DNA of 33,985 nt from Algoriphagus marincola HL-49. GTDB taxonomy: Bacteria; Bacteroidota; Bacteroidia; Cytophagales; Cyclobacteriaceae. The DNA lies in assembly GCA_001314815.1 (NCBI GenBank), contig LJXT01000027.1, positions 1 through 33,985 of the forward strand. The letters are read 5' to 3'. Both the position numbers and the translations under genes were made by a program. Below the pieces are notes generated by a model, which was not told the DNA's origin, did not search any database, and saw only the letters and a list, made by a program, of their open reading frames with translations. Positions 1 to 20,112 of this stretch are shown piece after piece; within the stretch, counting starts at the first letter, position 1; each line of letters opens with the position of its first letter.

Positions 1-24
1 TCTGCCAGCTAGTTATCCAGTATG

Positions 25-83
25 CTATGTGCGCTTTGTTTCTATGTGGTTTTAAAAAAGAAAAGAACCACATAGTCACATAG
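25..83. repeat. Nested palindromic intergenic repeat
   Basis: Two nested perfect inverted repeats are visible. The outer arms are CTATGTG at 25-31 and CACATAG at 77-83. The inner arms are CTATGTGGTT at 42-51 and AACCACATAG at 66-75, around a 14-nt A-rich loop. The top arm contains GTGCGCTTTGT (29-39), which recurs exactly inside the dyad at 21823-21888, so the two look like members of one dispersed family. It could act as a transcript end for a gene left of the window or as a non-coding mobile repeat. No transposase lies nearby. Confidence 0.7.
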
Positions 84-123
84 AAAAGACTCTTATTTGC
101 CTTTCCTGTTTATTTTGGTTTTG

Positions 124-261
124 ATGATGTATTCTTTGAATAAGGGCTTGAAATCAGAGTACCTGAAAATGACTCAATTGGAAAAAGAGCCGGATACCAA
201 GCGTTATGAGAAGAAATTGGAGCGAACACTTTCCAAAAAGAAAGCTCCTCAAAAAGATTAA
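124..261 (+). CDS. Possible small single-pass membrane protein (45-54 aa), unknown
   Basis: An open frame ends at the TAA at 259-261, 32 nt before the UspA gene. ATG codons at 124 and 127 give 45 or 44 residues. An in-frame TTG at 97 would give 54 residues with an N-terminal hydrophobic stretch (PFLFILVLMMYSL) followed by a very basic and acidic tail ending KKKAPQKD. That shape, a short membrane anchor plus charged tail, resembles real small membrane proteins, but the length is near chance and I recognise no family. It could equally be the 3' remnant of a lost gene. Its spacing would allow co-transcription with the UspA gene. Confidence 0.3.
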   Translation: MMYSLNKGLKSEYLKMTQLEKEPDTKRYEKKLERTLSKKKAPQKD

Positions 262-293
262 AGACATTTCTACCACCGAAAAAGACGTTAAAA

Positions 294-1154
294 ATGAAAG
301 AATTTCGAAAAATAGCCCTCTTTGCGGATCTCACTGAGATGGATGAACTGCTTTTGAAATTTATCAAAGGCTATGATAAGCTCTTTGATTTCGAAGAGCT
401 TTACTTGGTTCACCAGATAGAGGTCGAAGCCCTTTCGTCTGACCTGAAAGAGATGTTGGATGAGAAAAATCAGACCTTGGAAGGTTTGATCGAGGAGGAT
501 ATTCAATCCAAAATCGAGGAGGTTTTTGGTCCGGGAAAGTCCACGATCAAATCCTACATACATCCCAGGCCCGACTTTAGCGAATTGGTTCAGTGGCTGA
601 ATAAACAAAAGTTTGATCTGGTTTTCTTGGGTAAAAAGAAAGGGCTTGAGGGTAGCGGTATTTTCAGCAGTAAGCTGGTTCGCCTGCTTCGCACCAATCT
701 GATTTTGGTCCCTGAAACGGCTATAGCTACGATCACAGATGTGGTCGTTCCCATTGATTTTTCGGATTATTCTCCGAAAGTCCTTCAATCAGCTGAGTTT
801 ATTGCTCAAAAAACGGATGCCAAGCTCACGCCTCTTCATGTGTTGAAAATTGGGATTCATTATTTCCCATTTGTGGCTGGGGAAAGTCAGATTCAAAAGA
901 GTTTGGAAAAGGAAGCCCGATCCAAATTTGAGAAATTGATGAAAAAAGCGAAGACCGATCGTGAGCTGCTTACTATTCGATCATTTGGAAAGCCGATCGG
1001 GAATGCGATTTACAACAAGGCAAGGGAGCTAAATTCCGACCTGATTATCATTTCGAAGAAGGGGAAATCTGACGATGAGGATTTGCTAATCGGTAGTGTA
1101 GCAGAGAACCTTATCGCCAATGATAAGGATATCAGCGTAATGATTTTGCAATAG
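294..1154 (+). CDS. Universal stress protein, two tandem UspA domains
   Basis: This 286-aa cytoplasmic protein has the length of two fused Usp domains. The N-terminal half (about residues 1-140) starts KEFRKIALFADLTE and ends at LILVPETA, the usual last strand of a Usp fold. The second half starts at about 147 (ITDVVVPIDFSDYS) and carries the nucleotide-binding type signature near its end: ISKKGKSDDEDLLIGSVAENL, then the hydrophobic strand VMIL. The first copy lacks a clear G-x2-G-x9-G-S/T signature, so only the second domain is likely to bind ATP. Tandem Usp proteins of this size are common in Bacteroidota and are linked to stress or growth arrest. The ATG at 294 follows an A-rich leader. 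The stop is 2 nt from the stop of the convergent methyltransferase gene, leaving no room for a separate terminator. Confidence 0.85.
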   Translation: MKEFRKIALFADLTEMDELLLKFIKGYDKLFDFEELYLVHQIEVEALSSDLKEMLDEKNQTLEGLIEEDIQSKIEEVFGPGKSTIKSYIHPRPDFSELVQWLNKQKFDLVFLGKKKGLEGSGIFSSKLVRLLRTNLILVPETAIATITDVVVPIDFSDYSPKVLQSAEFIAQKTDAKLTPLHVLKIGIHYFPFVAGESQIQKSLEKEARSKFEKLMKKAKTDRELLTIRSFGKPIGNAIYNKARELNSDLIIISKKGKSDDEDLLIGSVAENLIANDKDISVMILQ

Positions 1155-1156
1155 TT

Positions 1157-1771
1157 TTATTGCTTCTGAAGTAAAAAGACACCCATTTCTCGCTGTTCCA
1201 AGACTAAAACGGTTTTGGGAGCTTCCAGAAATTGAAAGCCCATTTTCTGCAACTTATCCACATGGCTTTGGGTCAGCACAAAACGTTCTGATCCGTCCGG
1301 CAAGCGGTATTTGCCGCCTTCCAGTTTTTCTGACTTCTCTAAGATATTGCTAAAGCCGGTACACATCCGAAACCAAAAAATTCCTCCCGGCTTTAGTACC
1401 CGATGAATTTCTTTGATCATTTGCCAAAAGTTATCCACATTTTCTGCAAAATGCAGCACTGCTGAGCAAATAAGGGCATCGAAGGCCTGATTGTGGAATG
1501 GAATTTCTTCCAATCTTCCTAGCTGAAACCGATGCGAATCATAGTTTGGGTCAAGACTCTTTGCCTGATAGCGACAGTACTGAATAGCCAATTCATTTGG
1601 GTCGATTCCAAAGATCGAATAGCCTTGATTGATAAAGTAAACCGTGTTCCTTCCTTCTCCACAACCCGCGTCAAGGATTTTCATTTCCTTGGTAAACCTA
1701 CCCTTCAGGATCTGATCCAAGAGGTAGTTATCCACATTGCCCAAAAGCCGATTTAACTCCTTAATCTCCAT
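1157..1771 (-). CDS. Class I SAM-dependent methyltransferase
   Basis: The protein has 204 aa with the Rossmann-fold methyltransferase motifs in order. Motif I is ILDAGCGEGRNT (residues 32-43), motif II ends in the acidic residue of FGIDPNE, the motif IV region is ALICSAVLHFAEN, and post-motif is HRVLKPGGIFWF. It matches the Methyltransf_11/25 type. The substrate cannot be told from sequence; small molecules are more likely than nucleic acid. Its start overlaps the end of the upstream patatin-like gene by 11 nt, so the two are probably co-translated from one minus-strand mRNA. Three perfect TTATCCACA 9-mers lie inside it, which is exceptional for a 615-bp gene. They read TGTGGATAA on the coding strand and encode Val-Asp-Lys/Asn. 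Confidence 0.85.
   Translation of the reverse strand: MEIKELNRLLGNVDNYLLDQILKGRFTKEMKILDAGCGEGRNTVYFINQGYSIFGIDPNELAIQYCRYQAKSLDPNYDSHRFQLGRLEEIPFHNQAFDALICSAVLHFAENVDNFWQMIKEIHRVLKPGGIFWFRMCTGFSNILEKSEKLEGGKYRLPDGSERFVLTQSHVDKLQKMGFQFLEAPKTVLVLEQREMGVFLLQKQ
1254..1736. promoter_or_regulatory. Three perfect DnaA-box 9-mers
   Basis: TTATCCACA occurs on the plus strand at 1254-1262, 1431-1439 and 1728-1736, all inside the methyltransferase gene. The 9-mer equals the strongest E. coli DnaA box. The sequence match is exact; that DnaA binds here is inference. They open a series of 15 such sites spread over 10.2 kb. Confidence 0.5.
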
Positions 1772-2663
1772 TTTCTAGTTTGTCCAAGGCCTTTCGGGCT
1801 TTAATCCGACCAATTTCTATCATTTCTGCTGCTCGATAAAACTCCAATGTTCCTGCTTGCTTTCGAGCCACTTTTACTTGTACATCTACCGCATGCTTTT
1901 CCAAAAGCAGTTCACAAAAGCGGTCTTGCAAAAGGTCGAATGAGCGCTTCACCAAGTTCAAGGTGGAATAATTGATGTCTTTCTCCAAAGATTTTTCCTC
2001 CGGAAAGTACTGGGTCATTTTATTTTTATAATCAATCATCCAAGCAGGAAGGCTTTTGATAAATCGGTTTCCTTTTGAATCTTTTTTGGGAGGGGCGATG
2101 TATTCTTGATCCAGCCCATTGACATCTACTACGACCAAAAGGGTATCATTTTGGGGTGTCAGAAGGGAAATGGGAATCGGATTCAACACGCCGCCATCTA
2201 CTAAGAGCTGTCGTCCCTGCTTAGCGGGAATAAATACAGAAGGAATGCTACCGGATGCTCGAATGGCTGCAAATAGGCTTCCTTTATTAAAAACGACCTC
2301 TTTTCCGCTTTCTACATCTACTGCATTGCAGGAAAAAGGCAAGGCTAAATCCTCTATCTGACAGTCTGGAACTACCTTTTTTAAAGCCGAAAAGACTTTT
2401 TCTCCTTTAATAAAACCCTTACTCGAAAAGGTAAAGTCCATCAGGGAAAATACATCGATCCGGTCCAAATTGCAGATCCAGTTCTTAAACTCTTCCATTT
2501 TGCCACTGGCGTACATTCCGCCTACCAGAGCACCTGCTGAGCAACCCGCGATTTCGGCTATTTCGTAACCCCGCTCCTCCAATTCCTCAATCACTCCGAC
2601 ATGCGCCAATCCTCGAGCTCCACCGCTACTCAAAACCAATGAAACTTTCTGCTTTTTTGCCAT
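1761..2663 (-). CDS. Patatin-like phospholipase family protein
   Basis: All the patatin signatures are present in this 300-aa protein. The glycine-rich oxyanion loop is SSGGARGLAHVGV (residues 12-24), the nucleophile elbow is G-C-S-A-G with Ser42, and the second half of the Ser-Asp dyad is the DGG at Asp156-Gly158. It is expected to hydrolyse acyl esters of phospholipids or other lipids. I see no signal peptide and no membrane domain, so it resembles the RssA-like cytoplasmic type. The open frame continues upstream to 2855, but that would cover the start of the divergent VOC gene. The ATG at 2661-2663 (MAKKQKVSLVLSSGG) places the first beta strand where the family has it. The gene is followed with an 11-nt overlap by the methyltransferase. 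Only 39 nt separate it from the divergent gene, so promoters must be compact. Confidence 0.88.
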   Translation of the reverse strand: MAKKQKVSLVLSSGGARGLAHVGVIEELEERGYEIAEIAGCSAGALVGGMYASGKMEEFKNWICNLDRIDVFSLMDFTFSSKGFIKGEKVFSALKKVVPDCQIEDLALPFSCNAVDVESGKEVVFNKGSLFAAIRASGSIPSVFIPAKQGRQLLVDGGVLNPIPISLLTPQNDTLLVVVDVNGLDQEYIAPPKKDSKGNRFIKSLPAWMIDYKNKMTQYFPEEKSLEKDINYSTLNLVKRSFDLLQDRFCELLLEKHAVDVQVKVARKQAGTLEFYRAAEMIEIGRIKARKALDKLENGD

Positions 2664-2702
2664 ATCTTTAGGATGAAAAATCAATAAACGAAAGTAATAA
2701 AT

Positions 2703-3125
2703 ATGAGCGAATTCAAACCCTTTCACCTTGCATTCCCTATTCGTGATATCGAAGAGACCCGTGCTTTCTATGGAGAATTGCTTGGATGTGATATCGGTAG
2801 AAGTACTGATAAATGGATCGATTTCAACTTTTTTGGGCACCAATTGTCTGCACACATCAAGCCTGAGGAATTAGCCAAAGCAAATACCAATGCAGTAGAT
2901 GGCAAAAATGTGCCGGTTCGACATTTTGGGGTGATCCTCCCTTGGGACGAGTGGCATGATCTGGCTGATAAATTGAAATCTCATGGGATAGATTTTGTCA
3001 TCGAGCCATACATCCGTTTCAAAGGTGAAGTAGGCGAGCAAGCGACGATGTTTTTCTTGGATCCCTGCGGAAATGCACTTGAATTCAAGTCTTTTCAAGA
3101 CGAATCTCAGATTTTTGCCAAGTAA
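2703..3125 (+). CDS. VOC (glyoxalase/bleomycin-resistance) family protein
   Basis: This 140-aa protein has the beta-alpha-beta-beta-beta pattern of the vicinal oxygen chelate fold. The first module starts [22 protein letters not shown] and the second contains [16 protein letters not shown]. The closing motif [14 protein letters not shown] supplies the usual C-terminal metal-ligand Glu; other candidate ligands are His8 and the His of RHFGV. Members include glyoxalases, ring-cleaving dioxygenases and antibiotic-binding proteins, so the reaction cannot be assigned; single-gene members of this length in Bacteroidota are mostly uncharacterised. It is the first gene of a tightly spaced plus-strand operon. 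The next coding region starts 6 nt after its stop, which suggests that it acts with the PLP enzyme downstream. Confidence 0.82.
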
Positions 3126-3131
3126 TATCTC

Positions 3132-4190
3132 TTGAAGAAACACAAATTAAATACAGGCATCGGTCGAATGATCGAAATCGAAGGAAAGGACTACCTCTAT
3201 TTCAGCGGGACTTCCTATCTGGGAATCCCCCAGGATATAGATTTTTTGGACATTCTGGCCAATAATGTGTTCGAGTATGGTTCTAATTTCGGCCAAAGCA
3301 GAAAGAATAATATACAGCTGGAAGTCTTTGATGAATTTGAAAGCTTTTTTGCTGATGAGGCTGGCGCTGATGCAGGAGCACTTTTCAGTTCGGGTTACCT
3401 TGCAGGGATTGCTGCTTGGAAGAGTGTCATTAATCTTGTAGATGAGGTCTGGATTGCCCCAGATGCCCATCCGGCGGTTATTCCAGACGGACATCTAGCA
3501 AGTGATCAATTAAATTTTAAACAATGGAAAATTGATTGTCTGGAAAAAGCTGAATCTCTTTCTTCTCGAAGCATATTGATAGTTGTTAATGCCGTGGATG
3601 CTTTAAATGTGCAAATCCATGATTATTCTTGGGTGGAGGAAATTGGCAAAAAGCACAAAGTCTGGTTGTTGGTTGATGACTCACATGCTTTTGGGATACT
3701 GGGACATGGAATATTTGGCACTTACTCCAAGCTGCAATATGATGCCGTTTCGGTAATTGTGAGCGGTTCTTTGGGTAAGGGTTTGGGCCTGCCAGCCGGA
3801 ATCGTTCTCTGTCCGGATTATCATATAGACCATATTAAAAATTTGCCTCTTTTCGCTGGGGCTTCTCCTGGATCTCCTGCCCATATCCGGACTTTTTTGG
3901 AAATGCAGCATACTTATGAGGCGGCACACGAACACCTGAAGGAATTGTGTCAATACTTTTATGAGTTGATTGCCTTTATGCCACAGATCATAGGAAACCC
4001 TGACTACCCGGTTTTTCGATATACCGAAGACTCTTGGGTGGAGCAATTGGAAAAATCCGGGATCATCACCTCCAGTTTTCCTTATCCACATGCAGATAGT
4101 CCTAAGGTTAACCGGATTGTTCTTTCAGCTTTCCACGAAAAAGAAGATATTGAATACCTCGCTGATATTTTAGAAAACCTAGCCCTTTAA
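3132..4190 (+). CDS. Alpha-oxoamine synthase / BioF-like PLP enzyme (fold type I)
   Basis: The protein has 352 aa from a TTG start at 3132, and an alternative ATG lies at 3168. I prefer TTG because it keeps the segment leading into MIEIEGKDYLYFSGTSYLG, which resembles the usual N-terminus of 8-amino-7-oxononanoate synthase relatives, and because it sits 6 nt after the previous stop. Family features seen are YGSNFGQSRKNNIQLEVF (substrate/PLP entry region), a glycine-rich ALFSSGYLAG, DDSHAFGILG with the cofactor-binding Asp and His, and SGSLGKGLGLPAG with the likely Schiff-base Lys216. BioF, Kbl and SPT enzymes join an amino acid to an acyl-CoA with loss of CO2. Its shortness (about 350 rather than 390 aa) and missing biotin neighbours argue against being the housekeeping BioF. 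Its partners are the VOC protein upstream and the lipoprotein 2 nt downstream. Confidence 0.78.
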   Translation: MKKHKLNTGIGRMIEIEGKDYLYFSGTSYLGIPQDIDFLDILANNVFEYGSNFGQSRKNNIQLEVFDEFESFFADEAGADAGALFSSGYLAGIAAWKSVINLVDEVWIAPDAHPAVIPDGHLASDQLNFKQWKIDCLEKAESLSSRSILIVVNAVDALNVQIHDYSWVEEIGKKHKVWLLVDDSHAFGILGHGIFGTYSKLQYDAVSVIVSGSLGKGLGLPAGIVLCPDYHIDHIKNLPLFAGASPGSPAHIRTFLEMQHTYEAAHEHLKELCQYFYELIAFMPQIIGNPDYPVFRYTEDSWVEQLEKSGIITSSFPYPHADSPKVNRIVLSAFHEKEDIEYLADILENLAL

Positions 4191-4192
4191 CA

Positions 4193-5425
4193 ATGCAAAA
4201 GCTATCGATTCTATTTCTGATTGTTTTATTTTCATTCGCTTGTTCTCAAAAAGAGCCCGTACTTTTTGAAGATGGTTTGGAGGATTTTCCGACTCTTGAG
4301 AGAGTCTTGGATAGTGTGGATAAGTATCAAGTTCAGATTCTTTTTACGCAAATTGATCGAAATGAGCACATGAATCCCATGATGGAAACCTTTTCATTCA
4401 ATTTGGATGATGAGCGCTATTTCTATCCGGCTTCCACGGTAAAGTTGCCAGTGGCAATTCTAGCCTTAGAATGGCTCGAAGAGCAGAATGTGGATAACTT
4501 AACCTTGGACACGCCTATGCTGACAGATTCGGTCAGGCCCTCACAGCTTCCAGCGTATGTGGATAAGTCCTCTATGGATTCACTCCCCAGCATAGGGCAT
4601 TACATCAAAAAAATCCTTTTGGTTTCTGACAATGACGCATACAATCGCTTGTATGAGTTGCTTGGTCAAGACTACATTAATCAAAAGCTTGCCGAAAAGG
4701 GCTTGAATCATACAGTAATTAATCATCGACTGAGTTATCCGGCAAATGAGGTAGAAAATCGTTTCTTCAATCCCATTCGATTTGTGGATAAGTCGGGAAA
4801 TGTTCTATTGGAATTGCCTGAAAGAACGACCGAAAAGGTTTATTCCAATCCTGAGCGACCCATGATTGGGCGGGCCTACTATGCCGGAGATTCGCTGATT
4901 GAGACAGGGATGGAGTTTACTTTCAAAAATAAATTTGCCTTGTCCGACTTGCATGGAGTCGTTCAGCGAATTGTATTTCCTCGTTCATTTATGGAAACCG
5001 ATCGTTTTAACTTGAATGAGGAGCATCGGGAGTTTATACTAAAATACATGAGTATGCTACCCGGCGAGTCTGATTTTCCGAAGTACGAAGGACCTGATTA
5101 TTACGACAGCTATTCCAAGTTTTTAAAGTTTGGAACAGATAAAAACCCCATCCAGGACCGCTTCCGGATTTTCAACAAGACTGGTTGGGCTTATGGTCAC
5201 CTGATTGATGGAAGCTATTTTGTGGATTATGAGAATGGCGTCGAATTTTTTGTGTCGGCGGTGATTTATACCAACCAAAATGAAACCCTGAATGATAATA
5301 CTTACGAGACGGAGGGAATTGGATTACCCTTCTTTGCCGAATTGGGTGAGTATCTTTATCAGCGGGAGTTGAATCGTAAGAAAATATTGAAGCCGGATTT
5401 TGAAGGATTGAAATTTGAGTACTAA
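4193..5425 (+). CDS. Class A beta-lactamase-like serine hydrolase, lipoprotein
   Basis: The 410-aa precursor has a lipoprotein signal (lipobox SFAC, Cys17). The penicillin-recognising fold is marked by S81-T-V-K84 (SxxK) in FYPASTVKLPVA, S145-D-N147 in LLVSDNDAYN, and K329-T-G331 in FNKTGWAYG. These are the three hallmark motifs in the right order. I do not find the E-x-x-L-N omega-loop element that deacylates penicillins in true class A enzymes; the stretch at about 180-193 has Glu186 and Glu188 but no such pattern. A peptidase or esterase role at the cell envelope is therefore as likely as beta-lactam hydrolysis. It is also about 120 aa longer than TEM-type enzymes, with an insertion between SDN and KTG. 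It sits 2 nt after the PLP enzyme and 3 nt before a small membrane protein gene. Four perfect TTATCCACA sites lie in its first 600 bp. Confidence 0.8.
   Translation: MQKLSILFLIVLFSFACSQKEPVLFEDGLEDFPTLERVLDSVDKYQVQILFTQIDRNEHMNPMMETFSFNLDDERYFYPASTVKLPVAILALEWLEEQNVDNLTLDTPMLTDSVRPSQLPAYVDKSSMDSLPSIGHYIKKILLVSDNDAYNRLYELLGQDYINQKLAEKGLNHTVINHRLSYPANEVENRFFNPIRFVDKSGNVLLELPERTTEKVYSNPERPMIGRAYYAGDSLIETGMEFTFKNKFALSDLHGVVQRIVFPRSFMETDRFNLNEEHREFILKYMSMLPGESDFPKYEGPDYYDSYSKFLKFGTDKNPIQDRFRIFNKTGWAYGHLIDGSYFVDYENGVEFFVSAVIYTNQNETLNDNTYETEGIGLPFFAELGEYLYQRELNRKKILKPDFEGLKFEY
4315..4791. promoter_or_regulatory. Four perfect DnaA-box 9-mers
   Basis: TGTGGATAA (the complement of TTATCCACA) occurs at 4315-4323, 4489-4497, 4558-4566 and 4783-4791, all in the same orientation and all coding Val-Asp-Lys/Asn in the lipoprotein gene. 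The spacings between starts are 174, 69 and 225 bp. The match to the DnaA consensus is exact. Binding is inferred. Confidence 0.5.
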
Positions 5426-5428
5426 GCG

Positions 5429-5671
5429 GTGAAGCTGTTTGTCAAATATTTTAAGAAGAATTGGGCTTGGGGATTATTGTTTGCAGTTCCTCTAGTCTTT
5501 TGGCAAAAAGGCTATGTCTATCCCGAGTTGCGTTTCGAGTATGATTTTCTTCGGGAAAATGCCACTTACTATGAAATGCTATTTTATTGGGCCTTTTGGA
5601 CTGCCACTCAATTCTTCGTCTGGCGTCCTGCGTATTTATTCCGAGAAAGAAATTCCATGAAGAATGACTGA
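5429..5671 (+). CDS. Small two-TM membrane protein, unknown (tandem paralogue 1)
   Basis: This 80-aa protein starts with GTG, 3 nt after the lipoprotein stop. Two hydrophobic segments (about residues 11-27 and 49-65) flank a loop of charged and aromatic residues. The loop has GYVYPELRFEYDFLRENATYY. The next gene has GYVSFKEGFNWDFLNEGETY at the same place, so the two are clearly related and arose by tandem duplication. I recognise no named family. The last 8 nt overlap the next gene, which supports coupled translation. The operon context suggests an envelope partner of the serine hydrolase lipoprotein, but this is inference. Confidence 0.65.
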   Translation: MKLFVKYFKKNWAWGLLFAVPLVFWQKGYVYPELRFEYDFLRENATYYEMLFYWAFWTATQFFVWRPAYLFRERNSMKND

Positions 5672-5954
5672 ATTAAGAAAAAAGCGATTTAGCATCACAT
5701 TGATCGAGCCAAGACTGTTTTTGAAGACTTTTTGGCCAGCGATTTTGATATATCCTGTACTCATCGCCATTCTAACCGATGGTTATGTAAGTTTTAAAGA
5801 GGGCTTTAACTGGGATTTTTTGAATGAAGGCGAGACTTATATTAAGTTCATTTTCAATCTTGCCTACTTGACAGTTTTTAATTATTTCATCTTTTGGAGA
5901 TGGAATCAAAAATTGATAGAAAAGGTCAAAGCGAAAAATGGAGCAAAAAAGTAA
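5664..5954 (+). CDS. Small two-TM membrane protein, unknown (tandem paralogue 2)
   Basis: This 96-aa protein begins with ATG at 5664, overlapping the previous gene by 8 nt. A basic N-terminus (MTELRKKRF) is followed by hydrophobic segments at about 24-41 and 63-80 and a basic tail ending KAKNGAKK. The shared pattern with its neighbour is G-Y-V, then F-x-(W/Y)-D-F-L-x-E-x-x-T-Y, then a second helix ending in F-W-R. It is the last gene of the five-gene operon. Its stop is 19 nt from the stop of the convergent photolyase gene, and a perfect TTATCCACA (5955-5963) lies in that gap. No function can be assigned. Confidence 0.65.
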   Translation: MTELRKKRFSITLIEPRLFLKTFWPAILIYPVLIAILTDGYVSFKEGFNWDFLNEGETYIKFIFNLAYLTVFNYFIFWRWNQKLIEKVKAKNGAKK

Positions 5955-6060
5955 TTATCCACATTCTCCACTATCAAAAAACCCCTTCTAAATCAACCAT
6001 CGACTGTGGATAAGTATTGCCCATTTGAATTCCGATCTGTTTTAGTTGCGCTGTGGATAA
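5955..6060. promoter_or_regulatory. Three perfect DnaA-box 9-mers within 106 bp
   Basis: TTATCCACA occurs at 5955-5963 and its complement at 6005-6013 and 6052-6060. This is the densest group of the series and the only one reaching non-coding DNA (the convergent gap at 5955-5973). The two sites in the photolyase gene are read in different frames (Tyr-Pro-Gln and Leu-Ser-Thr), so a shared peptide motif does not explain them. The 50- and 47-bp spacings are close to five and 4.5 helical turns. Confidence 0.5.
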
Positions 6061-7407
6061 CTCCCAAGGGTGATGAATATCAAAGCCTTTGATATCCGCT
6101 AATTCAGGAACCCACAATCGAACATAGTCTCCATTTCTGTCATAATTTTTTCCTTGCCTCAGAATATTGAAGTAGCGGTTTTCTCGTGGATCATTTCCTA
6201 CACCACCTACGTACATCCAATTTCCCCAATTGGAACAAACATCATAATCGATCAGCTGGCTTTCGAAATAACTAGCCCCCCAAGTCCAATCAATTCCTAA
6301 ATCATTGACCAGAAAACTCGCCACATTTTGACGGCCACGATTTGACATGAAGCCGGAGAATTTGAGTTCTCGCATATTGGCATCTACAAAGGGGACTCCT
6401 GTCTGCCCCTCACACCAGCGCTTAAAATCAGCACTATCTCTGCGCCAGGAGTCCCTTGTATTTTTAATCCCTTCTATCTTGAAGACTTTATTCCCGTGTT
6501 TTTTGGTGATAAAGCGAAAATAATCTCTCCAAATCAGCTCAAAAATCAACCAATAAGTACTTTGGTTTTTCTTTCGCTCCTTTTCATATTGCTTCACTTC
6601 CTCGTATATAGTACGAGGCGACAAACACCCTAAAGCTAGCCAAGCGGAAAATTTTGAACTGTAGTCGGCACCGATAAGCCCATTTCGGGTTTCTTTATAA
6701 ACTTTCAGGTGATCACCTTCCCAAAAATAGGATTGGATTCGCCCGAGGCCAGCGCTTTCTCCACCATCAAACTCCATCACCGAACGGCGCTCAGGCTCAG
6801 GGTCCTCCAATCCGTAACTTTTCAAATCAGGCAATTCACCACTTTGAGGAATCACTGATTCATTTGGAAATTTTATTTTATTGGGTTGTGGATAAATGGG
6901 CCTAACAGAAGCCATTTTCTCCACCGATTTTCTGAATTGGGTAAAAACTTCAGGAACTTGTGTCACAGGAAATGGTAAATCCTCAATGTGATAAAGGGTT
7001 GATTGCCAAAACCTTTCCGTGGCAATCCCCTTGGACCAAGCAGCTTTCTCCAAAGACTTATCCACATGCTGTTCTTCTGCAGTCACCTCTTCCGAGAAAA
7101 ATATAGCATCTGCTTTTATTCGCTCAGCTAAGGTGATTATTTCGACCTCAGGATTTCCTCTTAGGATTACTAAGTCTCCGTCAATCTTGCGTAGATTTCT
7201 TCTTAAATCCACCACAGATTCCAATAGGAATTTACCTCTGAAACTTCCGGTTTTCGGAAAACCAATTTCCGTCGTCTCAAAATGTCGAGGATCAAAGCAG
7301 TAAACAGGAATCACCTCGGCTCCGCCAGAGCAGGCCTTGTGTAATGCTTCCTGATCTTTTACGCGAAGATCATTTCGAAACCAAACGATAATCCTATTGA
7401 AGTTCAT
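5974..7407 (-). CDS. cry: DASH-type cryptochrome / single-strand DNA photolyase
   Basis: The protein has 477 aa from the ATG at 7405-7407; a TTG nine bases further upstream is less likely. The N-terminal photolyase alpha/beta domain begins NRIIVWFRNDLRVKDQEALHKA and contains PVYCFDPRHF. The C-terminal FAD domain has SSKFSAWLALGCLSPRTIYEE, the RDYFRF helix, and WCEGQTGVPFVDANMREL. The stretch GNDPRENRYFNILRQGKNYD followed by GDYVRLWVPEL is characteristic of the DASH subfamily. DASH enzymes use blue light, FADH and usually MTHF to repair cyclobutane dimers in single-stranded DNA, and some act as light sensors. Length matches the family. It is transcribed alone and faces the end of the plus-strand operon. 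Four perfect TTATCCACA sites lie inside it. Confidence 0.92.
   Translation of the reverse strand: MNFNRIIVWFRNDLRVKDQEALHKACSGGAEVIPVYCFDPRHFETTEIGFPKTGSFRGKFLLESVVDLRRNLRKIDGDLVILRGNPEVEIITLAERIKADAIFFSEEVTAEEQHVDKSLEKAAWSKGIATERFWQSTLYHIEDLPFPVTQVPEVFTQFRKSVEKMASVRPIYPQPNKIKFPNESVIPQSGELPDLKSYGLEDPEPERRSVMEFDGGESAGLGRIQSYFWEGDHLKVYKETRNGLIGADYSSKFSAWLALGCLSPRTIYEEVKQYEKERKKNQSTYWLIFELIWRDYFRFITKKHGNKVFKIEGIKNTRDSWRRDSADFKRWCEGQTGVPFVDANMRELKFSGFMSNRGRQNVASFLVNDLGIDWTWGASYFESQLIDYDVCSNWGNWMYVGGVGNDPRENRYFNILRQGKNYDRNGDYVRLWVPELADIKGFDIHHPWELSTAQLKQIGIQMGNTYPQSMVDLEGVF
6887..7066. promoter_or_regulatory. Two perfect DnaA-box 9-mers
   Basis: TGTGGATAA is at 6887-6895 and TTATCCACA at 7058-7066, in opposite orientations inside the photolyase gene. 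The first encodes Tyr-Pro-Gln and the second Val-Asp-Lys on the minus strand. They belong to the 15-site series. Confidence 0.5.
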
Positions 7408-7503
7408 ATTGTGCAAACATGCTGTCTAGGTGAAGTGTTTGGGAGAAAAATAAAAATTGAGTTGTAGCGATTTTGTTTAATTTCAGCTTTGATTCGATTG
7501 ATT

Positions 7504-8445
7504 ATGAAAAAAATTCCGTTGCTCCTCGTTTTACTGGGTCTTGTCCCTTTTTCTGCTTTTTGCCAAAGTCTTCAAGAAAAATTGGGTTATCCCAAAGATT
7601 CCAAACTTTTGATCATTCATGGAGATGATGTGGGAGTTTCTCATTCTCAGAATAAAGCTACGTTTGAGGCGATCAAAAATGGCTTGGTCACTTCTACCAG
7701 TATGATGGTACCGGCGGCTTGGTCTTCAGAAGTTGCGGTGATGACAAAGGAAATTAGAGATCCCGATATTGGGATTCATATTACTCTTACCAATGAGTGG
7801 CTTCATTATAATTGGGGTCCCGAAGTAGGAAAGTCTAATGCTCCAGGTTTGGCAAATCCATTGGGCCACATGTATCCTACTTGCGTAGAAGTCAGTGAGC
7901 ATGCTAGCCCGGAGGAAGTGGAAATGGAGGTTCGTGCTCAGATTGAATCCGCAAAATCCTTAGGAATTGATATCACACATCTGGATTCCCACATGGGCTG
8001 TATGTTTTTTGGTAGGCCGGAGTATTTGAAAATCTATGTCAAGCTAGCATTGGAATATGAAATTCCTGCCATGCTCAATCAGCAGATTTTACAAAGTTTA
8101 ATTCTTCCCAATAAGCCCCTTTTTGAAGGCTTAAATGTGGATAAGTTGCCTGTGATAGATCAAATAATTATGGCAGATGAGGCAGCTTATGAAAGTGGAA
8201 TGGAAGAATTTTACACACAAGCCTTGAAAAATCTGCCTGCAGGAGTCCATGTTTTGTTGATTCACCTCGCTTTTGATGATGAGGAAATGAACGCTGTGAC
8301 GGCAGGCCATGACAGTTTCCATGCGCCTTGGCGACAGGCCGATTATGATTTTTTCACGAGTGAAAAAGCCAAGAATTTAATCGAAAAGGAAGGGATCAAA
8401 TTGATTACTTGGCGGGAAATAGGAAAGGTGATGAGGGACTTATAA
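7504..8445 (+). CDS. Exported ChbG/YdjC-family carbohydrate deacetylase-like protein
   Basis: The protein has 313 aa from ATG 7504; an in-frame TTG at 7489 would only lengthen the signal peptide. The signal sequence is KKIPLLLVLLGLVPFSAF, with cleavage probably near Cys20/Gln21; a Cys there leaves lipidation open, though the lipobox is poor. The metal-binding motifs of the YdjC/ChbG polysaccharide deacetylases are present: H39-G-D-D42 and H159-L-D-S-H163. A late IHLAFDDEEM is also family-like. ChbG removes an N-acetyl group from chitobiose; other members act on diverse sugars, so the substrate is open. An exported enzyme fits the glycosidase-like lipoprotein encoded about 1.3 kb downstream, possibly in one glycan-use locus now separated by the ATPase gene. 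One TGTGGATAA site (8136-8144) lies inside. Confidence 0.83.
   Translation: MKKIPLLLVLLGLVPFSAFCQSLQEKLGYPKDSKLLIIHGDDVGVSHSQNKATFEAIKNGLVTSTSMMVPAAWSSEVAVMTKEIRDPDIGIHITLTNEWLHYNWGPEVGKSNAPGLANPLGHMYPTCVEVSEHASPEEVEMEVRAQIESAKSLGIDITHLDSHMGCMFFGRPEYLKIYVKLALEYEIPAMLNQQILQSLILPNKPLFEGLNVDKLPVIDQIIMADEAAYESGMEEFYTQALKNLPAGVHVLLIHLAFDDEEMNAVTAGHDSFHAPWRQADYDFFTSEKAKNLIEKEGIKLITWREIGKVMRDL
8136..8144. promoter_or_regulatory. Perfect DnaA-box 9-mer
   Basis: TGTGGATAA is exact here and encodes Val-Asp-Lys in the deacetylase gene. It is an isolated member of the series. Confidence 0.4.
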
Positions 8446-8453
8446 TCGATAAA

Positions 8454-8502
8454 TGCACTGCAATAGTGCAAAAAATCTTAAAAAGCGCACTGTCATAGTG
8501 CA
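8454..8502. promoter_or_regulatory. Two operator-like dyads upstream of the ATPase gene
   Basis: The first dyad is TGCACT-GCAAT-AGTGCA at 8454-8470. The second is GCACT-GTCAT-AGTGC at 8487-8501, with a trailing A. They share arms and length, and their centres are 32 bp apart, close to three helical turns. The second dyad ends 7 nt upstream of a -7 box (8510-8517), where a -33 element would be expected. Binding of a dimeric regulator would therefore block or position RNA polymerase. The regulator is unknown; the ATPase encoded downstream has a winged-helix-like segment and could be autoregulatory. Confidence 0.6.
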
Positions 8503-8509
8503 GATTATG

Positions 8510-8517
8510 TATCTTTG
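8510..8517 (+). promoter_or_regulatory. Bacteroidota -7 box for the ATPase gene
   Basis: TATCTTTG matches TAnnTTTG exactly, 15 nt before the ATG at 8533. No TTTG/TTG -33 element is seen at the expected distance; that position is occupied by the second dyad. Transcription would start only about 10 nt before the ATG, so the leader would be very short. Confidence 0.5.
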
Positions 8518-8532
8518 GTACAAAATGTCCAA

Positions 8533-9702
8533 ATGGAGCAGTTACTTCAATATTCTCAACAATTAATCAACCAAGTAGATACAGCATTTACTCGCTATGT
8601 CTATGATCGAATTAATTGGAAAAATCGTCTGGTTGGCCTTGTTGGTTTTCGAGGTGTCGGAAAAACGACCCTTATCCTTCAACATATCAAGAAAAATCTG
8701 GACCTCAAAGAAACCTTATATGTGACTGCGGAAGATTTTTATTTTGCGAAGAACCGCCTACTAGACCTTGCTGATGATTTTGTGAAAGCTGGCGGTAAAT
8801 ATCTTTTTATAGATGAGATTCATAAATATCCGGATTGGTCCAAAGAGATTAAATTGATCTACGATTACCATCAGAAGCTCAATGTAGTATTTACGGGATC
8901 TTCCATTCTTGATATCAAAAGAGGGAGTTCTGATTTGAGTAGGAGGGCTGCAATGTATTCAATGCAAGGGCTTTCATTTCGTGAATACTTGATGCTTAAA
9001 CACCAAATACAAGTTCCAATTTTCTCCATCAATCAGATTATAAATCATCAGGTTGACATTCCTCAAATATCTCACCCCTTGCCCTTATTCAAGGAATATT
9101 TAAAATATGGTTATTATCCTTTTGCAAAGGATGAGGATTTTGAATTGAAACTTCAACAGGTTGTAAACCAAACATTGGAGGTCGATATTCCAACCTATTC
9201 TCAAATGAACATTTCAACAGGAAGGAAATTGAAACAACTCTTGGCAATTGTAGCAGAGAGTGTACCATTCAAACCCAACATGAGTAAAATAGCAGAAATG
9301 CTAAATATCAGCCGGAATAATATAGCGGACTACTTACTTTATATGGAGGAGGCAGGAATGACATTACAATTAAGAAGTCAAACAGGTGGAATTCGGGCTT
9401 TGGGAAAAATCGAAAAAGTGTATTTGGACAATACCAATCTAGTATTTGCCTTAGCAAAGGAAAATCAGAATACAGGTAATCTTCGAGAAACCTTTTTTCT
9501 CAATCAAACAAGGCTAAATCACCAGATTACTTCATCCGCCGCAAGTGATTTTAAAATTGGGGATTTAGAATTTGAATTGGGAGGAAAAAATAAAGGGGAA
9601 AAGCAGCTTAAAAATGTCGAAAAAGGATATTTAGTAAAAGATGATATTGAAATAGGTTTTCTAAATACTATTCCCCTTTGGCATTTCGGCTTAATGTACT
9701 GA
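8533..9702 (+). CDS. AAA-type ATPase with DUF4143-like C-terminal region
   Basis: This 389-aa protein has Walker A GFRGVGKTT (Lys44) and Walker B YLFIDEIHKYPDW at about residue 100, followed by the sensor-like VFTGSSILDIKRG. Mid-protein is PFKPNMSKIAEMLNISRNN, a helix-turn-helix/winged-helix type segment typical of the DUF4143 ATPases. The C-terminal end has FFLNQTRLNHQI and then SDFKIGDLEFELGGKNKG, which resembles a PD-(D/E)xK nuclease fold core. Such proteins are abundant in Bacteroidota and archaea, and their cellular role is largely unknown. The track-style extension to TTG 8515 would place the start on top of the -7 box, so I chose ATG 8533. It stands alone between two carbohydrate genes, and its AT-rich composition and own operator sites suggest a separately acquired gene. 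Confidence 0.85.
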   Translation: MEQLLQYSQQLINQVDTAFTRYVYDRINWKNRLVGLVGFRGVGKTTLILQHIKKNLDLKETLYVTAEDFYFAKNRLLDLADDFVKAGGKYLFIDEIHKYPDWSKEIKLIYDYHQKLNVVFTGSSILDIKRGSSDLSRRAAMYSMQGLSFREYLMLKHQIQVPIFSINQIINHQVDIPQISHPLPLFKEYLKYGYYPFAKDEDFELKLQQVVNQTLEVDIPTYSQMNISTGRKLKQLLAIVAESVPFKPNMSKIAEMLNISRNNIADYLLYMEEAGMTLQLRSQTGGIRALGKIEKVYLDNTNLVFALAKENQNTGNLRETFFLNQTRLNHQITSSAASDFKIGDLEFELGGKNKGEKQLKNVEKGYLVKDDIEIGFLNTIPLWHFGLMY

Positions 9703-9760
9703 CAATAACCCTGATGAGTTGACTCATACTAACTTGGCCGAGTATTCTAAAAGAAGAAAA

Positions 9761-12187
9761 ATGAAAATGATAAATAAGTATCCAAAAAGCATGAAAGCAG
9801 CTTTTCCCTTTTTAATTTTTGCAATCATTATCTCTTGTCAAACATCAATTGATTCTCCATCTCTTATTTTCGAAGACCTTGAAAATCAAGAGGGAATCGA
9901 AGGTAAAGCGGAATACCTCAACTCCCCATTTTCGGCTGCAGGGGATCGATTGTACTTAGTCGGTCATCAAAATGGCTCATTTCCGGATTTGGGTTGGCAT
10001 GTGGAAGGAGAAATGGGAGGAATCTGGTTGCATCCAATTAAGTTGCTTGATGGTTTTGTAGCACAGCTTGGAGATGATTCTCAAAGCATTTGTCTGACGG
10101 AAGGAAAGACTTTTACCAATTATCCATTTGCCAATACGATTTATTATGGAAGCGTATTAGCAGATTTGGAAGTAGAACGTATGCACTTTGTACCGGATGC
10201 GAGGGAGGGAATGGTCGTTTTGTATCGTTTTCGAAATACTGGTTCTGTGGATAAATCATTTGATTTTTCATGGACTTCCAAGGTAGACTTGAGGCCGGTT
10301 TGGCTGGGTGAGCAAAGTGGGATGATTGATCAAGCGGACGAGGTAGCTTTTAATGAGTTGACCGGAACATTCACTGCAAAGGACCAAGGGAATGATTGGT
10401 ATGCCGTATGGGGAACCGACGTGGGAATTCCGCTGACACCTATTGAGCCGACTTGTACTTTTGAATCTAAAGGCATGGGTACTTCGGCTGCCTTCGGGGT
10501 CCAACTGAATATTCCATCAGGGTCGGAATTGATTTTTCCCATCTATATCGCAGGCTCTACTGAAAGCGAATTAAGGGCTTTGGAAACCATTGCTGATTTG
10601 AGAGAAAACCTGGAGGCTGACTGGTTTTCCAAAAAGCGACGTTATGAGCAAATCTCCGAGAAATCCGCCATTGACATCCCGGATAAGCAGCTCCAAAAGG
10701 CATTTGAGTGGACTAAGTACAATACGGATTGGTTGGTACGCGATGTGCCCGATTTAGGGAGGGGTTTCGGTGCAGGTTTGCCGGATTACCCTTGGTTTTT
10801 TGGTGTGGATAGTGAATATACCATTCAGGGACTTTTGGCCACTGGTAGAAAGGAACTGGTGTATAGTACTGTGGAATTGATTCATGAGCTATCCGAAAAA
10901 ACCAACGGAAATGGTCGAATTGTCCACGAAGCATCCACCAATGGGGTAGTTTTCAACCCCGGTAACATCAATGAAACGCCGCAATGGGCTTCCATGATTT
11001 GGGAGGTTTACCGCTGGACTGGAGATAAAGAGTTTTTAGAGAAGTATTTTCCATCTGTGGAAAAAGGGCTTATTTGGCTCCTTGAAGAAAATGATCAGGA
11101 TGGGAATTTATTGGCAGATGGCTATGGAATGATGGAAATCCACGGATTGGAATCAGAGATGATTGATGTGGCGGCCTACAGTTACAAGGCTTTTGCGGAT
11201 GCAGCGAAAATGGCTGAAATACTCGGAAAAACCGAACTTTCTGAAAGTTATCAACAGACTGCTGATGCTTTGGCAGAAAAAATCAATAGCGATTTCTGGG
11301 TGCCTGAATTTGGGAGTTATGCAGATTTTATCGGTACAGCGGAAGAAGCCTTGCACCTGATTGATGGAGCGATTACCCGTGCAGATACCTTGAATAAGCC
11401 TTGGGCTGTGGATGAGTTGAAAGCCACCAAAAAGTATTTATCCACAATCCCAGCAGATCAAAAGCAGGGCTTTGTATTGTATCACAATTGGGTGGTCAAT
11501 ACACCGATGGAAGTAGGAGTAGCAGATCCAGAGAAAGCCCAAATCGCATTGGAGACAGCACGGAATTATACCAATCCTTTTGGCACCTTTGTGACGGGAA
11601 TTGACCGTGACGAAAGCGCGGAGTCCGAAGATGGTTCTTTTTCCGGGAGTAAGGTTTTTTCTTACACAGGAGCCGTGATGACTTTGCCGACAGGTGTCTC
11701 CGCTATTGGAGAAAACAGGTATGGAAACCCGGATGCGGCCTTGGATTACCTTCAGCGAATGACCCGCAGTTTCAGCTTTGCATTGCCAGGCTCGATCTAC
11801 GAAGTTTCTCCTGATTACGGCATGTTTACCCAAGCTTGGAATTTGTATAGCTATGCGATTCCCATCGTCACACAGTTTTTTGGGATTCAGCCGGATGCAG
11901 GAAATCGGGTGATTTATATCCGGCCTCAAATGCCCTCGGATTGGGAAAGTGCCAGCATTGAAAAGGTGCAAATAGGAGACAATGAAATTTCCCTTAGCTA
12001 TGAAAAGATTGATGGGGAGTTGACAATTGAAGTGTCCCAAACTCAGAAAAAATGGGGTTTGTCCATTGAAATTCCGGAAAGCTATGAGCAGGTGAAAATC
12101 CTTGGTAAAGAGGTGAGTTCGGATACGCAGAATGGCTATCGCAGGATCTTGATGACAGGAGCCAAGGTTCGGGTGGAGGCTAGGTAA
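9761..12187 (+). CDS. Six-hairpin (alpha/alpha)6 glycosidase-like lipoprotein, glycogen-debranching type
   Basis: From ATG 9761 the precursor has 808 aa. ATG 9791 is an alternative, and the upstream TTG 9719 is unlikely. The signal has a lysine-rich start and lipobox IIISC (Cys26). Residues about 30-290 form a beta-rich N-terminal domain. Residues about 310-740 look like an (alpha/alpha)6 barrel of the amylo-alpha-1,6-glucosidase kind, with FEWTKYNTDWLVRDVP, GAGLPDYPWFFGVDSEYT (Asp350 a candidate catalytic or substrate-binding acid), GRIVHEAS, and the ETPQWASMIWEVYRWTGD helix. A short C-terminal beta domain starts with YIRPQMPSDW, as in many GH63/78/116-like enzymes. It is probably surface-anchored and acts on an alpha-glucan or related glycan, possibly with the deacetylase at 7504. 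Substrate is not deducible. TTATCCACA sites lie at 10246 and 11438. Confidence 0.75.
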   Translation: MKMINKYPKSMKAAFPFLIFAIIISCQTSIDSPSLIFEDLENQEGIEGKAEYLNSPFSAAGDRLYLVGHQNGSFPDLGWHVEGEMGGIWLHPIKLLDGFVAQLGDDSQSICLTEGKTFTNYPFANTIYYGSVLADLEVERMHFVPDAREGMVVLYRFRNTGSVDKSFDFSWTSKVDLRPVWLGEQSGMIDQADEVAFNELTGTFTAKDQGNDWYAVWGTDVGIPLTPIEPTCTFESKGMGTSAAFGVQLNIPSGSELIFPIYIAGSTESELRALETIADLRENLEADWFSKKRRYEQISEKSAIDIPDKQLQKAFEWTKYNTDWLVRDVPDLGRGFGAGLPDYPWFFGVDSEYTIQGLLATGRKELVYSTVELIHELSEKTNGNGRIVHEASTNGVVFNPGNINETPQWASMIWEVYRWTGDKEFLEKYFPSVEKGLIWLLEENDQDGNLLADGYGMMEIHGLESEMIDVAAYSYKAFADAAKMAEILGKTELSESYQQTADALAEKINSDFWVPEFGSYADFIGTAEEALHLIDGAITRADTLNKPWAVDELKATKKYLSTIPADQKQGFVLYHNWVVNTPMEVGVADPEKAQIALETARNYTNPFGTFVTGIDRDESAESEDGSFSGSKVFSYTGAVMTLPTGVSAIGENRYGNPDAALDYLQRMTRSFSFALPGSIYEVSPDYGMFTQAWNLYSYAIPIVTQFFGIQPDAGNRVIYIRPQMPSDWESASIEKVQIGDNEISLSYEKIDGELTIEVSQTQKKWGLSIEIPESYEQVKILGKEVSSDTQNGYRRILMTGAKVRVEAR
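10246..11446. promoter_or_regulatory. Two perfect DnaA-box 9-mers, last of the series
   Basis: TGTGGATAA is at 10246-10254 (Val-Asp-Lys) and TTATCCACA at 11438-11446 (Leu-Ser-Thr), in opposite orientations within the glycosidase-like gene. No further exact match was found from 11447 to the window end. Confidence 0.4.
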
Positions 12188-15036: not shown

Positions 15037-16410
15037 TCAAAAAATCAACTGATACATTTCCTCCAATTTGCTGACTTGGATGACCTTGATTTTGAATTTG
15101 GAAAGGTCCAAGCCCTTGACGGCGTATTTGGATACCATGATCTTTTTGAAACCTAGCTTTTCTGCTTCGGAAATTCGGTTTTCTATCCGGGAAACGGCAC
15201 GAACCTCTCCGCCCAAACCCACTTCTCCCGCAAAACAAATCTGTTCGGACACCGGAGTATCCTCATAGCTGGAAATCAAACTCGCACAAACGGCCAAATC
15301 CAATCCTGGATCGTCCACACGCATGCCGCCTGCGACATTCAGAAAGACATCCTGATTCCCAAGCCGCATCCCGCCTCGCTTTTCCAATACAGCCAATAGC
15401 ATATTCAGTCGCTTGGCATCGTGTCCGGTACTGGTACGCTGAGGCGTGCCATAGGTAGCAGGGCTTACCAGGGATTGGATCTCGATCAGAAGTGGGCGGT
15501 TGCCTTCCAACATGGCGCCAATAGCTACCCCATTCAAGACTTCCTCTCGCTGAGTCAGTAAAATTTCCGATGGATTGGCAACAGAGCGAAGACCATCTAC
15601 CCGCATTTCATAGATCCCCAATTCATGCGTGGATCCAAAACGGTTTTTGGAAGTTCGCAAAATCCGATAGGTGAGGTGTCGGTCCCCTTCAAATTGTAAA
15701 ACGGTATCCACCATGTGTTCCAAGACCTTGGGTCCGGCAATGGATCCTTCCTTAGTGACATGCCCGATCAGAAAGACTGGTGTACCTGTCTCTTTGGCAA
15801 ATTTCATCAGCTCTGCCGTGCATTCCCTCACTTGCGAGACCGAACCGGCAGCGGATTCGACATATTGGCTATTCAAAGTTTGAATGGAGTCAATGACCAA
15901 AAAATCGGGCTTGAGCAGTTCGACCTGCTGAAATATCTGTTGGGTGTTTGTTTCAGAGAGTACATAGCAATCCGGATTGGAGACAGCCATTCGATCTGCA
16001 CGCATTTTGATTTGGGCTTCCGATTCTTCACCGGAGACATAGAGAATGGTTTTCCCGGTAAGCGTCAATGCGATTTGAAGCATTAAAGTGGACTTGCCGA
16101 TCCCCGGTTCCCCTCCAATCAGGACCAAAGATCCCGGGACGATTCCTCCGCCAAGCACCCGATCTAATTCCGAGTCCCCAGTCACCCATCGAGCTTGTTC
16201 CTCGTAGTTGACCTCTTTGATTTTTTTGGGGGTATTGGTTTTTTTTGTTCCGCTACCACTTGGTTTCCAACTCCCCTTTCCGCTTTCTTCCTTTTGGATG
16301 ATTTCTTCCACATAGGTATTCCATTGCCCGCAAGCCGGACATTTTCCCAGCCATTTTGGGCTTTGAGCCCCACAGTTTTGACAGAAGAAAGAGGTTTTTA
16401 TTTTAGCCAT
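15037..16410 (-). CDS. radA: DNA repair protein RadA (Sms)
   Basis: The 457-aa length is typical. The N-terminal C4 zinc finger is Cys10, Cys13, Cys24 and Cys27. The RecA-like core has Walker A GGEPGIGKST (residues 99-108) and Walker B FLVIDSIQTL. The RadA-specific KNRFG motif is at about 255. The C-terminal Lon-protease-like domain (about 280-457) has FLNVAGGMRVDDPGLDLAV and FAGEVGLGGEVRAVSRIENR. RadA is a helicase-like ATPase that drives branch migration and processes recombination intermediates. The ATG at 16408-16410 is certain from the conserved start MAKIKT. The same 18-nt start region is duplicated 135 bp upstream. polA lies upstream in the same direction, separated by 250 bp of repeat DNA. 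Confidence 0.97.
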   Translation of the reverse strand: MAKIKTSFFCQNCGAQSPKWLGKCPACGQWNTYVEEIIQKEESGKGSWKPSGSGTKKTNTPKKIKEVNYEEQARWVTGDSELDRVLGGGIVPGSLVLIGGEPGIGKSTLMLQIALTLTGKTILYVSGEESEAQIKMRADRMAVSNPDCYVLSETNTQQIFQQVELLKPDFLVIDSIQTLNSQYVESAAGSVSQVRECTAELMKFAKETGTPVFLIGHVTKEGSIAGPKVLEHMVDTVLQFEGDRHLTYRILRTSKNRFGSTHELGIYEMRVDGLRSVANPSEILLTQREEVLNGVAIGAMLEGNRPLLIEIQSLVSPATYGTPQRTSTGHDAKRLNMLLAVLEKRGGMRLGNQDVFLNVAGGMRVDDPGLDLAVCASLISSYEDTPVSEQICFAGEVGLGGEVRAVSRIENRISEAEKLGFKKIMVSKYAVKGLDLSKFKIKVIQVSKLEEMYQLIF

Positions 16411-16662
16411 AAGGGAAGTAGCAAGTATTTAGTAGCAAGTAGATAGAAACAAGAGGCGAGAACCAAGAGACAAGAGCATTTAAATCAGACAGTTTTGCTT
16501 CTAATATCTTGCATCTTGACTCTAAGTGGTTTTTATTTTAGCCATTAGAGGAGTAGCAAGTAGTTAGTATCAAGTATCAAGTAGATAGAGTCAAGAATCG
16601 AAAAGATAAGCGTTCTGATTAGAAAGTCTTGCTTCTATCATCTTGCTTCTAGCTTCTAATTT
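16393..16662. repeat. 135-bp tandem duplication carrying the radA start
   Basis: The 18-mer made by the first six radA codons is present twice, at 16393-16410 (real start) and 16528-16545, exactly 135 bp apart. Each copy is followed by a similar but diverged A/G-rich arm (GTAGCAAGTA..TCAAGTAGATAG) and, about 80 bp later, its inverted counterpart (CTTGCTTCTA..CATCTTG). Each unit is thus an imperfect long palindrome. The distal copy gives a seven-codon minus-strand mini-ORF, MAKIKTT, ending at a TAG (16522-16545). Together the units fill the whole polA-radA gap; no gene is present there. Confidence 0.75.
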
Positions 16663-20038: not shown

Positions 20039-20112
20039 GAACGGTTTGAATTATTTAAGCTAAATAAACACCTTCGGTGCATGCTTGTTTTTGCATAATA
20101 CAAAACTATCTC

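Follow-up and report, generated by a model that had tools for sequence, protein, structure and literature searches.

Initiator titration is an idea several decades old, and loci that carry groups of DnaA boxes away from oriC, such as the compact DARS1 and DARS2 of E. coli, are known. Olivi et al. (2025, PMC12371093) state that titration was still without experimental evidence before their E. coli work, and they report that boxes are enriched around oriC and that DnaA is titrated on the chromosome. According to a review (PMC5295017), a B. subtilis strain without six DnaA-box clusters (DBCs) initiates early, which fits titration. Here we analyse a stretch of 33,985 nt from Algoriphagus marincola HL-49 (the window, meaning the whole stretch), in which positions 1254 to 11446 hold sixteen exact copies of the consensus DnaA box TTATCCACA. 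We regard this segment as probably a distributed, origin-proximal DnaA titration field that is copied soon after initiation.

Sixteen consensus DnaA boxes in coding DNA

An exact-match count on both strands of the window gives sixteen copies of TTATCCACA within 1254-11446 and none in 11447-33985, while dinucleotide shuffles of the window (n = 100) gave a mean of 0.35 and a highest count of 2. The preliminary description of this DNA had noted the same box-free remainder and listed fifteen boxes, all with exact coordinates, but had overlooked the one at 4082-4090. It had also placed the boxes mostly in genes of unrelated function and in both orientations, and this holds for the full set: seven lie on the plus and nine on the minus strand, and fifteen are intragenic, distributed over a methyltransferase gene (3 boxes), a BioF-like aminotransferase gene (1), a beta-lactamase-like gene (4), a DASH cryptochrome gene (4), a YdjC-like deacetylase gene (1) and a glycosidase-like gene (2), six genes of unrelated function. 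The box at 5955 is the sole intergenic one. In the following list, rows are those of the orthologue alignments in which the column carries a box.

1254..11446, no strand: the DnaA-box field as a whole (exact-match count, genome count, codon shuffles, opportunity test)
1254..1262, plus: perfect box in the methyltransferase gene (1157-1771, minus); 14/30 rows
1431..1439, plus: perfect box in the methyltransferase gene; 19/30 rows
1728..1736, plus: perfect box in the methyltransferase gene; 4/30 rows
4082..4090, plus: perfect box in the BioF-like aminotransferase gene (3132-4190, plus); 7/36 rows; the box absent from the earlier list
4315..4323, minus: perfect box in the beta-lactamase-like gene (4193-5425, plus); 8/35 rows
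4489..4497, minus: perfect box in the beta-lactamase-like gene; 13/35 rows
4558..4566, minus: perfect box in the beta-lactamase-like gene; 15/35 rows
4783..4791, minus: perfect box in the beta-lactamase-like gene; 19/35 rows
5955..5963, plus: perfect box, intergenic, with the cryptochrome gene on one side and a 96-aa open reading frame (ORF) of no known family on the other
6005..6013, minus: perfect box in the DASH cryptochrome gene (5974-7416, minus), column 1463; 20/20 rows, Belliella too
6052..6060, minus: perfect box in the cryptochrome gene, column 1416; 17/20 rows, Belliella too
6887..6895, minus: perfect box in the cryptochrome gene, column 581; 8/20 rows
7058..7066, plus: perfect box in the cryptochrome gene, column 410; 11/20 rows
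8136..8144, minus: perfect box in the YdjC-like deacetylase gene (7489-8445, plus); 7/15 rows
10246..10254, minus: perfect box in the glycosidase-like gene (9719-12187, plus); 3/24 rows
11438..11446, plus: perfect box in the glycosidase-like gene; 19/24 rows, Belliella too

Neighbouring boxes are irregularly spaced (47-2354 bp), and the 72 spacings pooled from four fields show no helical phasing (R 0.08-0.14, with about 0.12 expected), nor is there a DNA-strand bias (7 to 9 in the window, 17 to 18 in a Mariniradius field). The first 12 kb are coding DNA of 37-45% GC in 2-kb windows, and an Rfam scan of the window at gathering thresholds gave no match to RNA elements. Boxes with one mismatch are not concentrated in the field (the window has 16, of which 6 fall in its first 11.4 kb and 10 in the remaining 22.5 kb), so the enrichment is specific to the exact word. 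Between the YdjC-like and glycosidase-like genes lies an AAA_14/DUF4143 ATPase ORF (8515-9702) that holds no box; among the compared loci it has a match in one alone (L016), and it may have entered the field recently by insertion.

The same count over the source genome (G000, a draft of 3.80 Mb in 190 contigs, 93.8% complete) shows a single peak. Of 57 copies of TTATCCACA, 16 lie in the field, where 0.17 would be expected at the genome's mean density, and the runner-up place has three, within 106 bp on contig 133. Nearly the only shared flanking base is an A at position -2 (15/16 field boxes), and we rejected a longer dispersed repeat because the flanks have little in common beyond it. The extended word ASTTATCCACA matches 11/16 field sites as against 2/41 of the other TTATCCACA sites in the genome. 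In the fields of relatives A at -2 is found in 24/24 boxes of G010, 29/35 of Mariniradius and 18/23 of A. formosus (1245-1300 kb), with 10/17 and 10/13 in two Belliella clusters, as compared with 5/16 in A. formosus at 900-1240 kb. A greater affinity of ASTTATCCACA than of ATTTATCCACA or of one-mismatch boxes would account for this flank preference.

Selection on the boxes and their turnover

When synonymous codons were shuffled within the genes of positions 1-12187, 1000 trials gave a mean of 2.97 sites and a maximum of 8, against the 16 observed. An opportunity test was based on the places in called genes where the encoded residues are compatible with the 9-mer, all frames of both strands being considered. 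All 15 such places in 1-12187 are realised, where codon use predicts 1.77, and 0/5 in the rest of the window. Comparison stretches gave 12/105 in A. formosus (900-1240 kb; 4.9 expected), 8/101 in G009 (17 samples of 20 kb away from the origin; 4.8 expected) and 1/8 in Mariniradius (130-165 kb). Within fields the figures are 15/15 for the homologous field of A. formosus and 4/8 for its second cluster, 26/30 for the Mariniradius field, and 15/21, 13/14 and 9/10 for the Belliella clusters. Sixty permuted control words in the same 12 kb were realised 8 times altogether (6.1 expected), with at most 2 per word. That selection at the DNA level maintains the boxes is strongly supported, and the suggestion of the preliminary description that the constraint is on DNA stands; protein sequence and codon use fail as predictors of the sites.

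Alignments of the field genes point in the same direction. Where the tripeptide LST is encoded at the box positions, it is written as TTATCCACA in 17/17 rows of the cryptochrome and 19/20 rows of the glycosidase-like gene, Belliella among them, or 36/37 combined. For comparison, we took column triplets from seven genes of the field, requiring that a tripeptide free of Met and Trp be common to at least 15 rows (n = 986): the most frequent 9-mer accounts for a median share of 0.24, and a share of at least 0.95 is reached in 6/986, four of which lie in boxes. Opportunities are also about 4-fold denser per codon in the field (0.38%) than in the comparison stretches (0.08-0.10%), which suggests that amino acids have shifted as well. 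In box-bearing rows of the beta-lactamase-like gene, QNIEGL or a similar peptide is replaced by QNVDNL, and PKYEGP by PSYPQS. To judge from these alignments, boxes appear to have been acquired even where this altered residues of the host proteins.

Single sites come and go. The beta-lactamase-like protein is 98% identical to its counterpart in A. formosus, and box positions run parallel between the two. With this protein we found 50 loci in relatives, compared over up to 21 kb: those named Algoriphagus have 2-17 boxes, and two loci from metagenome-assembled genomes of Cyclobacteriaceae have 5 and 3. No box occurs at the loci of Cognataquiflexum, Aquiflexum, Mariniradius, YHN15, Cecembia and Belliella, one in Mongoliibacter, at most 2 in nine Aquimarina and Cellulophaga loci, and none in five uncultured Bacteroidetes and two Microbulbifer loci; these outgroup counts refer to this locus alone, Mariniradius and Belliella having fields elsewhere. 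In the codon alignment of the beta-lactamase-like gene (35 rows) boxes occupy seven columns, in 1, 8, 13, 15, 19, 1 and 6 rows, and the outgroup rows are box-free (0/9 with a box). Columns other than those conserved in the cryptochrome and glycosidase-like genes are boxed in few rows only, and the patatin gene (1761-2855), although inside the field, is boxed in 0/30 orthologues. Many sites thus turn over.

Distance to the origin and fields in other genera

Two parS-type sites adjoin mnmG in 7/7 genomes searched. In A. formosus, the nearest named relative, the sign of the third-position GC skew flips (negative to positive) at about 1.16 Mb, close to mnmG and to parS (1173.0 kb), and the field homologous to that of the window lies 114-123 kb from these two. 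Dense fields lie 31-59 kb from parS in G004, 31-61 kb in G010 and 18-51 kb in Mariniradius. Belliella has two clusters to one side of parS, at 217-229 and 107-115 kb, and a third on the opposite side, at 172-182 kb. A radius of 300 kb around parS, picked after the positions were known, takes in 47/74 boxes of A. formosus (9.9 expected), 26/37 copies of ANTTATCCACA in G009 (4.6 expected) and 24/25 copies of ASTTATCCACA in Belliella (3.3 expected). The skew switch of G009 is noisy and lies in the same region as parS; dnaA is about 1 Mb from parS in both G009 and A. formosus.

The likely oriC of these bacteria, and the best candidate we have, is a stretch on that side of parS where mnmG lies, at a distance of about 4.5-5 kb. 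In 5/6 relatives it holds one exact box among near-boxes, and in the sixth (G004) near-boxes only. It is an AT-rich (71%) intergenic gap in A. formosus, and in four other relatives the stretches inspected are 62-71% AT with many degenerate boxes by eye.

G018:C10:1168097-1168570: candidate oriC stretch
G009:C1, about 4399.9 kb: candidate oriC stretch
G010:C3, about 411.0 kb: candidate oriC stretch
G025:C28, about 240.4 kb: candidate oriC stretch
G026:C1, about 282.6 kb: candidate oriC stretch

A second element, which we call mtgA-ClC, is compact and AT-rich and is flanked in G000 by transglycosylase-like and ClC-type channel genes (named by eye). It is a candidate for a second DnaA-binding control site or a displaced origin. 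As oriC itself its triple box is less favoured than the mnmG-side stretch, since the third-position skew of A. formosus does not switch there, 238 kb from parS.

L004:5124-5229 (contig 133 of G000): mtgA-ClC element, three perfect boxes
A. formosus C10:934748-934853: mtgA-ClC element, three perfect boxes
G009 C1:4285765-4285870: mtgA-ClC element, three perfect boxes
Mariniradius C28:168108-168212: mtgA-ClC element, four perfect boxes

Around dnaA nothing consistent was seen, with an exact box in 1/9 dnaA loci and near-boxes in five others. There is one DnaA_C protein in G000 and one in 8/8 relatives, and a second such protein was accordingly rejected. The domain IV of DnaA reads GGRDHSTVIHA, close to the GGRDHTTVIHA of B. 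subtilis. PF00308 gave three matches in the draft G000, namely DnaA, an IstB-type transposon ATPase-like protein and an AAA_14-type ATPase-like protein (the latter two named by eye), and thus no Hda-like protein.

Similar fields occur in other Algoriphagus, in Mariniradius and in Belliella, three named genera. In Mariniradius 27/31 copies of ASTTATCCACA lie inside 32 kb of a single contig, where 17 window proteins were tested and none matched at 1e-20. In Belliella aquatica 24/25 copies fall into three clusters: the first contains homologues of the cryptochrome and glycosidase of the window, the second an amidase homologous to window 20077-21789, which is outside the field of the window, and the third has no match to window proteins. 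With shared genes in one Belliella cluster and others elsewhere, the field partly keeps an ancestral location and partly occupies different genes. In a class-wide draw of 119 genomes one, of the window's own genus, has at least 20 copies of ASTTATCCACA, and the highest count outside the family is 17 (10 for the control); this draw and the family tally given below show enrichment, not clustering, positions being listed for some of the genomes only.

Two box-free genes, one RadA-like and one for DNA polymerase I, lie in the window to the right of the field (15037-19489). Further on (22323-30461) a PorP/SprF gene stands beside a gene for a 2365-aa protein with SprB, PKD and CHU_C domains, probably a type IX secretion or gliding adhesin pair.

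Readings of the field and comparison with known systems

The excess of boxes, the selection at the DNA level, the turnover of single sites, the proximity to the origin in relatives and the recurrence in three genera are observations. From these we infer that DnaA binds the field and is titrated by it, with an effect on the timing of initiation. Each of the sixteen consensus boxes, presumably of high affinity, would bind DnaA as an independent site. At an early-replicating location the field would be duplicated shortly after initiation, and the doubled sites would soak up free DnaA to below the initiation threshold, preventing re-initiation until growth and synthesis restore the level. What selection would then chiefly act on is how many sites the neighbourhood holds, and less which gene hosts them, so that single sites could be gained and lost. 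The preliminary description had proposed a datA-like titration locus; titration is the best reading, whereas the architecture of datA is not what is found.

Several points weigh against a titration field. The boxes of the mtgA-ClC intergenic region have T or A at -1, not C or G, so that the field boxes possess a flank preference of their own. Few boxes are found at the locus in A. resistens (2), A. antarcticus (4) and A. aquimarinus (4), A. resistens shows no excess over codon shuffles (2 boxes; shuffle mean 1.21), and the one-contig genome G009 spreads its boxes across about 500 kb around parS; a dense field at this place is thus not needed genus-wide. The beta-lactamase-like gene is box-free in 3/26 rows of the Algoriphagus clade. 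In a per-column test of single residues only 2/8 box codons exceeded the 95% invariance threshold, and the tripeptide test came after this weak result, as its replacement. In G000 the contigs of the window (C99) and of parS (C102) are unlinked, and the distance to the origin comes from relatives only. At least 20 copies of ASTTATCCACA occur in only 28/148 Cyclobacteriaceae genomes (17/84 genera; 0/148 for the reversed word), so that most of the family is without such an excess, in a tally made by eye and at a threshold strict enough that the field-bearing G000 (13) and G156 (16) fall below it. Our literature search found no data on DnaA binding or replication for Cyclobacteriaceae and, in titles and abstract openings, nothing on such fields in Bacteroidota. 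The review of the B. subtilis clusters, in another passage, plays them down (PMC5295017).

The alternative that survives best, although we consider it unlikely, is that another chromosome-organising protein reads ASTTATCCACA for condensation of the origin domain, anchoring or segregation, the overlap with the DnaA box being borrowed or coincidental, or that DnaA acts here in segregation and not in timing. The preferred flank, with A at -2 and usually C or G at -1, extends past the 9-mer and differs from that of the mtgA-ClC boxes, and the fields share their region with both parS sites. However, the word is the exact consensus DnaA box, a centromere is already present as the separate parS pair beside mnmG, and the dispersal in G009 fits titration better than a compact domain. 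Less probable is a locus of the datA or DARS kind that acts, by way of a structured complex, on the nucleotide bound to DnaA (ATP hydrolysis or ADP release). It would explain a cluster of consensus boxes outside oriC and the retention of the two cryptochrome boxes at 6005 and 6052, 47 bp apart. Yet datA, as described in two sources (PMC5295017, PMC12371093), is a non-coding locus of about 1 kb with five boxes and a requirement for IHF, and most positions of the field turn over. The DARS-like element of the preliminary description is not supported either, for sixteen irregularly spaced sites over 10 kb, fifteen of them in reading frames, do not form a compact non-coding array.

DnaA acts as a transcription factor in E. 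coli and B. subtilis. A role of the field boxes as regulatory sites or roadblocks for their host genes is nevertheless very unlikely, given their location inside reading frames of unrelated genes and the fact that the Mariniradius field and two Belliella clusters occupy other genes. It is more improbable still that the window holds or flanks oriC, as the preliminary description had considered from its dense perfect boxes: the sites lie in genes and not in an AT-rich intergenic array, the skew switch, parS pair and mnmG of A. formosus are 114-123 kb off, and six relatives offer the better candidate near parS. Chance, base composition, and protein or codon constraint have a negligible probability and are refuted by the codon shuffles and the opportunity test, for although opportunities are denser in the field and its shuffles give more sites than composition alone, the observed number exceeds every shuffle, every opportunity is used, synonymous codons are frozen, and the beta-lactamase-like homologues of nine outgroup rows are box-free.

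A wider reading can be offered tentatively, at somewhat less than even chances: this clade of Cyclobacteriaceae may time replication mainly by DnaA counted against a movable, gene-embedded field of boxes near the origin. Such a field would be a regional trait that persists through the turnover of sites and host genes and rewrites the proteins of resident genes, and the lack of an Hda-like PF00308 match would fit titration as the main brake. The field offers a natural case where the selection for additional DnaA boxes is legible at the level of single codons. Synonymous recoding could remove the sites singly and leave the genes intact, and related species vary in the number and layout of sites. 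The apparent selection at the level of the chromosome also affects proteins, with replication-control DNA seeming to override amino-acid choice in unrelated enzymes.

Among known systems, an oriC would be expected as an AT-rich intergenic array at the GC-skew switch, whereas the field is coding and the switch in A. formosus is at parS and mnmG. DARS1 and DARS2 are non-coding and have nine boxes between them (PMC12371093), an arrangement that the field lacks. With datA the field shares a non-origin location, boxes presumably of high affinity and, as proposed here, a lowering of DnaA activity; in extent it differs, with 16 boxes, 15 of them in genes, over 10.2 kb. In E. coli, as in the present case, boxes are commoner around oriC than elsewhere, but the enrichment described in PMC12371093 is broad, covering several centisomes, with degenerate motifs and a preference for the lagging strand, whereas the Algoriphagus field is of kilobase scale, consists of exact boxes under codon-level selection, and uses the two strands about equally, these being DNA strands and not replication strands. 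Closest are the DBCs of B. subtilis (Okumura et al. 2012, via PMC5295017), which are likewise clusters near yet outside oriC. As far as that review allows a comparison, the differences are that Algoriphagus has 16 perfect boxes in 10 kb, 15 of them in reading frames, and that proteins here appear reshaped and host genes differ in part between genera. Clusters of DnaA boxes near the origin are therefore already known; what is unusual is that this one is written into genes at the expense of their protein sequence, and that in different genera it is located in partly different genes.

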